Notes under the pieces: generated by a model
Told to the model about the DNA's origin: nothing
Seen by the model: the letters and a program-made list of their open reading frames with translations, nothing else
Database searches by the model: none
Source: Bacteroidota bacterium
GTDB taxonomy: Bacteria > Bacteroidota > Bacteroidia > Bacteroidales > JAAUTT01
Assembly: GCA_030706405.1 (NCBI GenBank)
Contig: JAUZOO010000002.1
Span: 129,167-193,166, forward strand
Direction of reading: 5' to 3'
DNA: 64,000 nucleotides
In this document: positions 37,864 through 43,649 of the stretch, one piece after another
Layout of the letters: every line of letters starts with the position of its first letter
Position numbering within the stretch: position 1 is the first letter of the stretch
Position numbers and translations under genes: made by a program

Positions 37864-38739
37864 TTAACTAAAGATGACAGTCCGGTTTCTGAATGCCAAA
37901 ACCTTACGTTGAAGGTGTGCATATACGGCCCGGGAGAGCACAATCTTTTCAAGGTCTTGTCCTTTGCGGATAAGATTTTTAATAGAGTCGGTGTGACTGA
38001 TGCGGACAACATCCTGTTCGATAATCGGGCCTGCGTCGAGGTCGGCGGTTACGTAATGACTGGTGGCTCCGATAATTTTAACCCCGCGTTCGTGTGCCGA
38101 ATGGTATGGCTTGGCTCCCGGAAATGCCGGGAGAAACGAATGGTGTATGTTGATGACTTTATTGGGGAATTTCCTGATAAAATCTTCCGAAAGTACCTGC
38201 ATATACCGAGCAAGTACGATAAGGTCGATGTTATTTTCCTTTAAAAGTTTTATTTCTTCGGCTTCTTGTTCTTTTTTGTTGGTTCCGTCAATCGGGAAGA
38301 TATAATAGGGAATGCCAAATTGCTTGGCAACCGGCTCCATGTCGGGATGGTTGCTTATAATCATCGGTATTTCAACGTTCCATTCACCGGCCTGATAGCG
38401 GGAGAGGATATCGAACAGGCAATGTGACATTTTCGAAACAAAAATGGCCATGCGCGGTGTCTGATCGGAGAAATAAATATTCCAGGTCATCCCGTAACGT
38501 TGGGCTATCAGCGTGTCGAAATAATCGGCAATTTTATCTTCGGGGATGGCAAATTTGTCGAGGTCCCATTCAATACGCATGAAGAATTCTCCGATTTCAT
38601 GGTTTACATGCTGCTCGAGATATAAGATATTCCCGTTATTTTCGGTCAGAAATTCGGTTACTTTGGCAACAATCCCCTGTTGGTCGGGACAGTGCATGAG
38701 AATGGTGGCGGTATTTTTCCCGTTTAAAGCGTTGTTCAT
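37864..38739 (-). CDS. purU: Formyltetrahydrofolate deformylase
   Basis: A 291-residue protein. An N-terminal ACT domain (about 10-85, ATILMHCPDQQGIVAKVTEF) precedes the formyltransferase-type catalytic domain. The catalytic core is INIHHSFLPAFPGAKPYH, then HERGVKIIGATSHYVTADLDAGPII with the essential Asp. It hydrolyses 10-formyl-THF to formate and THF, balancing one-carbon units and feeding formate for purine synthesis. Placement between hisB and hisH is unusual. Because hisHF release AICAR, which needs 10-formyl-THF to become IMP, a metabolic link is possible but inferred. Confidence 0.93.
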   Translation of the reverse strand: MNNALNGKNTATILMHCPDQQGIVAKVTEFLTENNGNILYLEQHVNHEIGEFFMRIEWDLDKFAIPEDKIADYFDTLIAQRYGMTWNIYFSDQTPRMAIFVSKMSHCLFDILSRYQAGEWNVEIPMIISNHPDMEPVAKQFGIPYYIFPIDGTNKKEQEAEEIKLLKENNIDLIVLARYMQVLSEDFIRKFPNKVINIHHSFLPAFPGAKPYHSAHERGVKIIGATSHYVTADLDAGPIIEQDVVRISHTDSIKNLIRKGQDLEKIVLSRAVYAHLQRKVLAFRNRTVIFS

Positions 38740-42448: not shown

Positions 42449-43306
42449 TTATTCAATCATTTTTTCGATAGGCATTACCAGGATACCTTCGGCACCGCAT
42501 TCTTTCAGCTGGTCGATGATGTCCCAGAAACGGGATTCTTCCAATACCGAATGAACCGATACCCAGCCTTCCTGAGCCAGTGTGACTACGGTTGGACTTT
42601 TCATTCCGGGGATAACATTCACAATTTTATCCACGTTTTCTTTGGGCGCGTTTAATACGACGTATTTATGGCGTTTTCCTTGTTGTACCGAGCGGGTACG
42701 GAACAACAGCTTGTCGAGGATTTCTTGTTTTTCGGCTGAAAGGTTCGGGTCGCCGATGATAACGGCTTCCGATTTAACAACCACTTCTACTTCGCGAAGA
42801 CCGTTGCTGATTAAGGTGCTGCCGGAGCTTACAATGTCGAAGATCCCGTCGGCCAATCCGATGCCCGGGGCAATCTCAACAGAACCGCTGATTTCGTGGA
42901 TTTCGCAGTTGATTTTATTTTCGTCGAGGAATTTTTGCAGGATGTTAGGGTAGGAGGTTGCAATCTTTTTGCCGTTAAGGTACGATGGCCCTGTGTAGTT
43001 CTCTGATTTAGGAATAGCTATTGAAAGACGGCATTTGGCCCATCCCAGCTTCTCAACCACACGTATCGGCGATTTCTTTTCGAAGATAACGTTCTCGCCA
43101 ACAATACCTATGTCGGCAACACCATCGGCTACATATTGCGGGATATCGTCATCGCGCAGGAACAATAGTTCGATAGGGAAGTTGGTAGCCTGGGTAATCA
43201 GCTTGCGGTCGCTGTTGTTGAATGAGATTCCGGCTTCGGAAATTAAACCGAGCGATTTTTCGCTTAAGCGACCTGATTTCTGGATTGCAATTCTTAATAT
43301 GCTCAT
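42449..43306 (-). CDS. hisG: ATP phosphoribosyltransferase (long form)
   Basis: A 285-residue enzyme that commits ATP and PRPP to histidine. N-terminal LRIAIQKSGRLSEKSL, then DDIPQYVADGVADIGIVG and the PRPP site EISGSVEIAPGIGLADGIFDIVSSGSTL are conserved. The C-terminal ACT-like domain (about 205-285) with SPTVVTLAQEGWVSVHSVL marks the long, histidine-inhibited form. Transcription is likely controlled by the tandem leader elements ahead of it. Confidence 0.97.
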   Translation of the reverse strand: MSILRIAIQKSGRLSEKSLGLISEAGISFNNSDRKLITQATNFPIELLFLRDDDIPQYVADGVADIGIVGENVIFEKKSPIRVVEKLGWAKCRLSIAIPKSENYTGPSYLNGKKIATSYPNILQKFLDENKINCEIHEISGSVEIAPGIGLADGIFDIVSSGSTLISNGLREVEVVVKSEAVIIGDPNLSAEKQEILDKLLFRTRSVQQGKRHKYVVLNAPKENVDKIVNVIPGMKSPTVVTLAQEGWVSVHSVLEESRFWDIIDQLKECGAEGILVMPIEKMIE

Positions 43307-43331: not shown

Positions 43332-43364
43332 AAAAAAGGTTTGCAGGATTCTGCAAACCTTTTT
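43332..43364 (-). terminator. His attenuator terminator 2 (proximal to hisG)
   Basis: On the minus strand, arms at 43351-43364 and 43333-43346 form a perfect 14-bp stem with a 4-nt loop (43347-43350), followed by a T run (43337-43332). It lies 39 bp after the stop of the second His-rich leader and 26 bp before hisG. It is almost identical to the terminator of leader 1. Confidence 0.9.
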
Positions 43365-43403
43365 AATATTTTGGTTTTTATACATACTCCTGCCTGGCGA
43401 CTT

Positions 43404-43460
43404 TTAGTCACAATGGTTTAAATGCCCGTGATGATGTTCTATGTTGTGATTAAAAGTCAT
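43404..43460 (-). CDS. hisL: His-rich leader peptide 2
   Basis: An 18-residue frame from ATG 43460 to TAA 43404, peptide MTFNHNIEHHHGHLNHCD, with six histidines including a run of three. Its coding sequence is enclosed by complementary arms (43444-43458 and 43399-43413, 14 of 15 pairs). Ribosome stalling at the His run would open this stem, which matches the logic of a classical His attenuator. An intrinsic terminator follows at 43332-43364. Confidence 0.85.
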   Translation of the reverse strand: MTFNHNIEHHHGHLNHCD

Positions 43461-43483
43461 TGTTGTTGCTTGGTTTTGAAATT

Positions 43484-43514
43484 AAAAAAGGCTTGCAGAA
43501 TTTGCAAACCTTTT
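43484..43514 (-). terminator. His attenuator terminator 1 (distal)
   Basis: Arms at 43503-43514 and 43486-43497 form a 12-bp stem with one wobble pair, followed on the minus strand by six T residues (43489-43484). It sits between leader 1 and leader 2, 23 bp after the leader 1 stop. The upstream flank and stem are near-copies of terminator 2. Confidence 0.88.
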
Positions 43515-43537
43515 AATATTGTTTACGCTTCTGCATA

Positions 43538-43597
43538 TTACCGACAGTTCATCGAATGATGAATACCGTGATGGCCGTATGCGAAGTGTTTGTTCAT
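43538..43597 (-). CDS. hisL: His-rich leader peptide 1
   Basis: A 19-residue frame from ATG 43597 to TAA 43538, peptide MNKHFAYGHHGIHHSMNCR, with five histidines in two adjacent pairs. Complementary arms at 43578-43589 and 43525-43537 (with one bulge and one mismatch) enclose the His codons. It is followed by terminator 1 and then by a second, independent leader and terminator, giving a tandem attenuator. Confidence 0.83.
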   Translation of the reverse strand: MNKHFAYGHHGIHHSMNCR

Positions 43598-43617
43598 GTC
43601 TTTTTTTATTTTCGGTG

Positions 43618-43649
43618 CAATGATAGCTATTTTTTTGTTATTACACAAA
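43618..43649 (-). promoter_or_regulatory. Bacteroidetes-type promoter of the his leader
   Basis: On the minus strand, TTTG (43649-43646) is followed after 20 bp by TATCATTG (43625-43618), a one-mismatch TAnnTTTG. Predicted transcription start is near 43611, just 14 bp upstream of leader 1. This is consistent with both leaders lying in the transcript. Confidence 0.55.

Follow-up and report, generated by a model that had tools for sequence, protein, structure and literature searches.

The enterobacterial his operon attenuator, catalogued as Rfam RF00514, is among the closest described systems. It resembles the locus considered here in having a leader peptide with a run of His, a terminator before hisG and an alternative antiterminator. 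It consists of one unit, whereas the window (the whole 64-kb stretch of DNA that was analysed) contains two, neither of which matches an Rfam family at gathering score. T-boxes differ in that they bind tRNA directly, while in the window sensing is proposed to be by a translating ribosome and a leader peptide. Some predicted Bacteroidetes attenuators were reportedly listed by Vitreschak in 2004. Strong indications of attenuation by leader peptides ahead of amino-acid operons have been presented for Flavobacterium, together with a structured 5' element before hisG in Flavobacteriaceae that has no match in Rfam (PMC9723704). The element is from the same phylum as the window, and single hisG attenuators are therefore not new in Bacteroidota; a tandem arrangement is not mentioned in the accessible part of that text. 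Leader-peptide-like sORFs are also described in Bacteroides (PMC7366714). According to a paper from 2010, leader-peptide systems had until then, with the exception of ermC, been demonstrated in Proteobacteria and Actinobacteria only, and that paper extended them to Firmicutes (PMC2965389), while in a paper on Bacteroidota his genes the term 'leader' occurs 0 times in the main text (PMC8305728).

Paired sensors or paired leader peptides have been described in other settings. The mgtCBR leader of Salmonella has tandem attenuators, which sense ATP and proline, and its authors present the case as singular, a single attenuator being normal (PMC3641672). As in the window, where a single transcript is probable, two leader-ORF attenuators lie in series on one mRNA, but they respond to two different signals, whereas both leaders in the window are His-rich. 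Double T-boxes for one amino acid (PMC9413887) likewise place two sensors for the same amino acid in series. The ermB gene has two leader peptides, ermBL and ermBL2 (PMC8274638), so that it too has two leader peptides before one gene and one inducer. However, this is translational attenuation of an erythromycin-induced resistance gene, and the accessible text does not mention serial transcription terminators, which are predicted in the window. No serial leader-peptide attenuators for one amino acid were found among the matches listed from the open-licence literature, mostly titles and the starts of abstracts. The pair before hisG would be a natural repeated experiment on why the same sensor sits twice in series.

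On the minus strand of the window, two complete attenuator units lie in series between a promoter-like site and hisG, each composed of a His-rich leader ORF, a putative protector hairpin, a mutually exclusive antiterminator and a U-tailed terminator. The features are as follows.

43618..43649, minus strand: promoter-like site of Bacteroidota type, read from the sequence (TTTG at 43649-43646, a 20-nt spacer, and TATCATTG at 43625-43618, with 1 mismatch to TAnnTTTG)
43597-43538, minus strand: leader ORF 1, MNKHFAYGHHGIHHSMNCR, 5 His codons of 19; His-bearing counterparts in 5/5 genus genomes
43525..43589, minus strand: putative protector (1:2) hairpin in unit 1, from the MFE fold (unit z -6.3)
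43494..43535, minus strand: antiterminator 1, UGCAGAA/UUCUGCA plus GUAAAC/GUUUGC, fold -12.6 kcal/mol, z -3.8
43514-43486, minus strand: terminator 1, 12 pairs, -14.0 kcal/mol, followed by a U run
43460-43404, minus strand: leader ORF 2, MTFNHNIEHHHGHLNHCD, 6 His codons of 18; His-bearing counterparts in 5/5 genus genomes
43399..43458, minus strand: hairpin across the leader of unit 2, GACUUUUAAUCACA/UGUGACUAAAAGUC, MFE fold, z -4.5 for the unit
43343..43393, minus strand: antiterminator 2, GCAGGA/UCCUGC plus AACC/GGUU, fold -14.0 kcal/mol, z -4.0
43364-43333, minus strand: terminator 2, 14 pairs, -18.1 kcal/mol, followed by a U run
42449-43306, minus strand: hisG, the first gene of the operon (NCBIfam TIGR00070 and others)

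The promoter-like site was named by comparison with TTTG...TAnnTTTG, which we take to be the Bacteroidota promoter consensus. The first-pass annotation had proposed a promoter, two His-rich leaders, each with its own U-tailed terminator, and then hisG. Its leader positions are exact, both terminators were located, and the order is as it described, with one promoter-like site. The genes after hisG are hisD, hisC, hisB (bifunctional), purU, hisH, hisA and hisF; purU (formyltetrahydrofolate deformylase, 37864-38739, minus strand) lies within the his operon between hisB and hisH.

In the MFE fold of unit 1, a segment directly after the stop codon, UAUGC-A-GAAG (UAUGCAGAAG), is paired with the leader codons CUUCGCAUA, and the resulting protector hairpin sequesters the antiterminator strand. 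In that of unit 2, the strong leader hairpin stops 5 nt short of the antiterminator strand. Each antiterminator excludes its own terminator: in unit 1, GUUUGC lies in the 5' arm of terminator 1, and UUCUGCA spans its loop and 3' arm. The duplex between linker and terminator has z -3.96 (p 0.005) for antiterminator 1 and z -2.53 (p 0.025) for antiterminator 2. The first-pass annotation had mentioned neither the antiterminators nor the hairpins that extend into the leader codons.

We conclude, with a probability of about 0.82, that the his leader comprises two serial ribosome-mediated transcription attenuators, both of which would respond to how much charged His-tRNA is available. The sequences themselves show the parts, the mutual exclusion of their pairings, the closeness of the antiterminator strand to the stop codon, and conservation and covariation. 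We infer that both units lie on one transcript from the single promoter-like site, that the leaders are translated without a strong Shine-Dalgarno site, that stalling at the His codons senses His-tRNA, and that the read-through of the two units multiplies. When histidine is plentiful, the ribosome would reach the leader stop codon and cover the antiterminator strand, so that the terminator forms and RNA polymerase halts. When His-tRNA is scarce, the ribosome would stall on the His codons and sit on the upstream arm of the protector hairpin, releasing a segment that would pair with the terminator and let transcription proceed. Polymerase would thus be tested twice before hisG, at 43514-43486 and again at 43364-43333. 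Since it has to pass two tests, the read-through probabilities should multiply, which predicts a lower basal leak and a steeper induction than with one unit; the first-pass annotation likewise expected a stepwise or steeper response.

The antiterminator pairing was examined in the units of 172 hisG loci, which number 142, or 139 distinct ones once 3 identical units are set aside. The linker was taken to begin 18 nt ahead of the leader stop codon and to extend up to the terminator, and dinucleotide-shuffled linkers served as control. The real linkers pair with their own terminators better than the shuffled ones do, with a mean z of -1.65 and p<=0.05 in 56/139 units against about 7 expected, although close relatives are included in all these statistics and the units are not independent. 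The test had been widened to the whole hairpin after the data were seen, inspection having indicated that most units pair with the 5' arm; the narrower first test, restricted to the loop and 3' arm, gave a mean z of -0.72 and 28/139 units. Among all terminators, a linker's own stands at a median of the 17th percentile, and falls within the best 5% for 18.7% of units. The antiterminator strand overlaps the stop codon or lies within 15 nt of it in 55 of the 56 significant units, a nearness to which the design of the search contributes, since its linker starts 18 nt ahead of that codon.

Covariation points in the same direction. In the GCAG class of 18 units, which was picked after the window units had been seen, includes them, and has one row (L003 unit 2) in the wrong register, the bases beyond the GCAG:CUGC core covary, with 1.94 extra pairs compared to 0.89 when terminators are permuted (5000 permutations, p 2e-4). 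Between the two copies in the window, GCAGAA:UUCUGC becomes GCAGGA:UCCUGC, one pair being altered on both sides (A:U to G:C). Further pair types in relatives are GCAGUGC:GCACUGC in L006, GCAGGAC:GUUCUGC in L004 and GCAGUA:UACUGC in L029. Over 180 units, the longest pairing with the 5' part of the unit's own terminator averages 6.66, compared to 5.90 with swapped terminators (sd 0.078, 60 permutations).

The window's genus is represented by five genomes including the window's own, the genus and family searches giving the same five. Two His leaders are found in 5/5, each followed by a hairpin under a looser hairpin rule, where leader 2 of L005 (genome G001), which has only HH, was missed by the usual rule and added by hand. 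The pair therefore probably predates the genus. Leader 1 retains its start codon, at least three His codons including a run of two or more, and its stop codon in 5/5 genomes, while the peptide diverges across the genus (for example MNRQFAYGHHQVHQLIG with MNYLHHHRFNHHSV in L002, and MVRILAIENNRHHHHG with MKKQHHHLHHHLLQK in L004); a clear hairpin follows it in 4/5. The first-pass annotation had called for a comparison with relatives for conserved His runs and twin terminators, and had described peptides that diverge while keeping their His runs. The His-bearing leaders and the divergence around the His runs are borne out in all five genomes. A hairpin follows each leader in 5/5 by the looser rule, but that of unit 1 is poor in one genome (G004), as detailed below. 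Its central proposal of two consecutive His attenuators is supported by the anatomy, the exclusive antiterminators and this conservation.

The two units could alternatively be tuned to different levels of His-tRNA charging and so act in stages, rather than as equal multipliers. The arrangement of the His codons is compatible with this, in that unit 1 has 5 His spread over 11 codons while unit 2 has HHH.H..H, and in G001 the contrast is between HHHH in unit 1 and HH in unit 2. However, the richer run does not stay with one unit across the genus (G002 has HHHH in unit 1 and HHHLHHH in unit 2), implying no fixed division of labour, and we regard staged tuning as possible but doubtful.

It would be a different matter if only one unit regulated, most likely unit 2, which adjoins hisG, and unit 1 were a leftover or leaky duplicate in the process of being lost. 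Terminator 2 is indeed the stronger (-18.1 vs -14.0 kcal/mol), and unit 1 has no clear antiterminator in two of the genus genomes. In G003 (L002) its antiterminator is no better than chance (z -1.0). In G004 (L003) it has z +0.8, a value which partly reflects a badly placed hairpin in the automated placement; the unit-1 hairpin there is poor, with no strong terminator 1, and the stricter hairpin rule detects neither terminator at this locus. Units have also been gained and lost, to judge from family f33, where 12 of the 28 scorable loci have one unit. Against this, the His codons of leader 1 have been kept in all five genomes despite the divergence of the peptide, with a clear hairpin in four, and within the window it is unit 1 that has the stronger antiterminator signal (z -3.96 vs -2.53). 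Control by one unit alone is thus improbable. Against the serial reading itself stand the facts that most relatives examined manage with one unit (63/90 loci in the order sample described below) and that the Trp and Arg leaders of the same genome are single.

A start site between the units, which would make unit 2 a separate, alternative leader on a second transcript, is very unlikely: stem 1 is separated from the second ATG by 25 nt, and no promoter-like (TAnnTTTG-like) site was seen by eye in the region between units 1 and 2. At the position matching the window's promoter-like site, TTG...TAATATTGCA-like sites are present in L002, L004 and L005.

Chance was assessed with a unit rule that requires an ORF opening with ATG, 7-45 aa long and having 3 or more His within 8 residues, and after it, within 140 nt, a U-tailed hairpin of -8 kcal/mol or better. 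Applied to both strands of the window, the rule finds the two hisG units only. When the 448-nt intergenic region was dinucleotide-shuffled 1000 times, 999 of the shuffles contained no unit, 1 contained one, and none contained two. Hairpins resembling terminators are frequent, with 107 counted in the window by rule, but the idea that the hairpins and His-rich ORFs are fortuitous, or that the terminators just end an upstream transcript, is hardly credible given that their combination is unique in the window and never arose twice in a shuffle, that the His leaders are conserved in the genus, and that 73/89 order-sample and 71/78 named loci have a His-dense ORF no more than 350 nt from hisG.

A covariance model was built from 59 hisG units, with window unit 1 in the training set and window unit 2 outside it, although the genus orthologues of unit 2 were inside. 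In the 4.9-Mb genome, of which 34 of 2711 first-look candidates were fully scored, the two window units are the best matches listed, at 71.7 and 60.6 bits (rough E-values 6.5e-13 and 2.5e-10); the next match listed, at 38.2 bits, lies before argG. Rfam gives 0 matches in the window at gathering score. A known Rfam element was considered and rejected: between 43250 and 43750, the 16 sub-threshold matches at E<=1 include no His leader family, and the best, Thr_leader, scores 27.5 bits against a cut-off of 55. These matches are taken as chance or a generic leader resemblance. Given that the window has no match at gathering score, such elements probably go unannotated.

The spread of the arrangement was followed in the upstream regions of hisG loci, where tandem pairs were counted directly and not from the covariance-scan match list. 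The detector looks for ORFs with 3 His in 8 residues over 650 nt upstream, so that a locus scored as having one unit may conceal a second (L174 perhaps); ten loci in which hisG was not matched at E<=1e-3 were positioned through a weak similarity to the short piece of hisG that they contain. In a sample spread evenly over the order, hisG was found in 96/198 genomes, and 90 of the 96 upstream regions were counted (G015, G021, G029, G131, G157 and G176 being left out). One was under 250 nt, 17 had no unit, 63 had one and 9 had two. The nine tandem loci fall in five families, namely f1 (that of the window), f14, f41, f48 and f33. Among 80 named loci, 2 were too short, 24 had no unit, 50 had one and 4 had two, the last being Salinivirgaceae bacterium (L112), Carboxylicivirga (L119, L123) and Marinilabiliales bacterium (L145). 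L145 is not a new tandem case, because its HisG is identical to that of L029. A single predicted His attenuator before hisG is thus common in Bacteroidota. In family f33, hisG was found in 32/47 genomes, and of 30 loci 16 had two units (2 of these are also in the order sample), 12 had one and 2 were too short. Three units were found in no locus examined within 650 nt.

In genus g154 of f33 (L173, L175-L177 and L179) the starts of the tandem leaders are spaced by about 180-200 nt and lie as far as 590 nt from hisG, and four of the five second leaders end in CRKN. This tandem lineage is separate from genus g33 on the HisG tree.

The first-pass annotation took the shared terminator core as a sign that the unit had been duplicated. 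On its own GGTTTGC/GCAAACC is not sufficient for this: most of the 59 aligned hisG units contain a GGYTTRC...GYAARCC core, and because it is a widely shared consensus, similar cores are weak evidence of duplication. Terminator-core similarity was accordingly rejected as proof. If one unit had recently been copied from the other, the two units of a genome should resemble each other most. In the window's genus (g1), taken over the whole unit, they are less alike than position-matched units of relatives, with identities of 0.68 across species for both unit 1 and unit 2, and 0.64 between units within a genome. The rule fails for the terminator hairpin alone (0.71 within a genome; across species, 0.64 for unit 1 and 0.70 for unit 2), so that the signal of positional orthology in the genus is modest for the whole unit and absent for the terminator hairpin. 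Units 1 and 2 are also less alike than position-matched units in f14 and f41 together (3 genomes), in genus g33 of f33 (11) and in g154 (5), while in Carboxylicivirga (2 genomes) position-matched units are more alike for unit 1 only. As position-matched units are mostly the more alike, recent duplication or gene conversion is not supported, and it is possible that neither unit originated as a copy of the other.

A HisG tree was made from 138 distinct rows, 27 of them tandem (L005 by eye). The tandem label changes at least 10 times on this tree, and the starred branches force at least 5 changes (quick tree). A tree constrained to put every tandem row in one clade is rejected (p-AU 1.75e-121). 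The tandem arrangement thus seems to have arisen several times, with the changes on the tree being gains and losses undivided. As this is a gene tree, vertical descent and a transfer of operon and leader together look alike on it. The tandem families f14 and f41 form a group with the window's genus (support 90), and the genus's tandem pair may therefore be older than the genus. We suggest tentatively, at rather less than even odds, that serial His attenuators are a recurrent design in Bacteroidales, in which a second unit has been added independently several times, has diverged fast in peptide and terminator, and has been selected for repression ratio and steepness. If so, two leaky ribosome-gated terminators would give a ratio and steepness beyond those of one, and transcription and translation would be tightly coupled in the phylum.

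Leaders of other kinds are present in the same genome. The leader MTTAIFHRQYPCRPSVFRD, with 3 Arg of 19, and a terminator lie before argG (contig C1, L204), and the WWW leader MNNISLNRNWWWRLLYSISRNEE and a terminator before trpE (contig C2, L206). Both are single, so leaders in this genome are not tandem as a rule. They belong to 20 weaker covariance matches chosen from the list, for which gene names came from translations read by eye. Another seven have a residue-matched leader before or near an amino-acid gene (L208, L209, L210, L211, L216, L218 and L223), and the other 11 of the 20 have no clear one. The seven comprise an Asn-rich leader (asnB), NNNNNN (asnA), WWW and WW (trpE, the second 1.2 kb upstream), YYYYY (an aminotransferase adjoining tyrA), Ile/Leu (leuA) and Phe/Tyr (pheA). 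Candidate His leaders stand before hisG across Bacteroidota, and in several genomes leaders matched to the residue precede genes for other amino acids. Peptide attenuation needs a ribosome close behind the polymerase, and such leaders would therefore make coupling testable in this phylum.

A further group of His leaders before hisG ends in ...HHSS. It comprises L108, L111, L113, L121 (which ends in HHSSF), L135, L136, L137 and L140, from Cytophagales and relatives. The unit rule finds no terminator unit at the ...HHSS loci. In all eight, pairing of ATTCCTC with a GAGGAA-like segment could produce a small hairpin that straddles the stop codon or lies just after it. This looks like a different variant of hisG control, Rho-dependent or translational. 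The same ...HHSS peptide ending is also seen in L141, L168 and L170.
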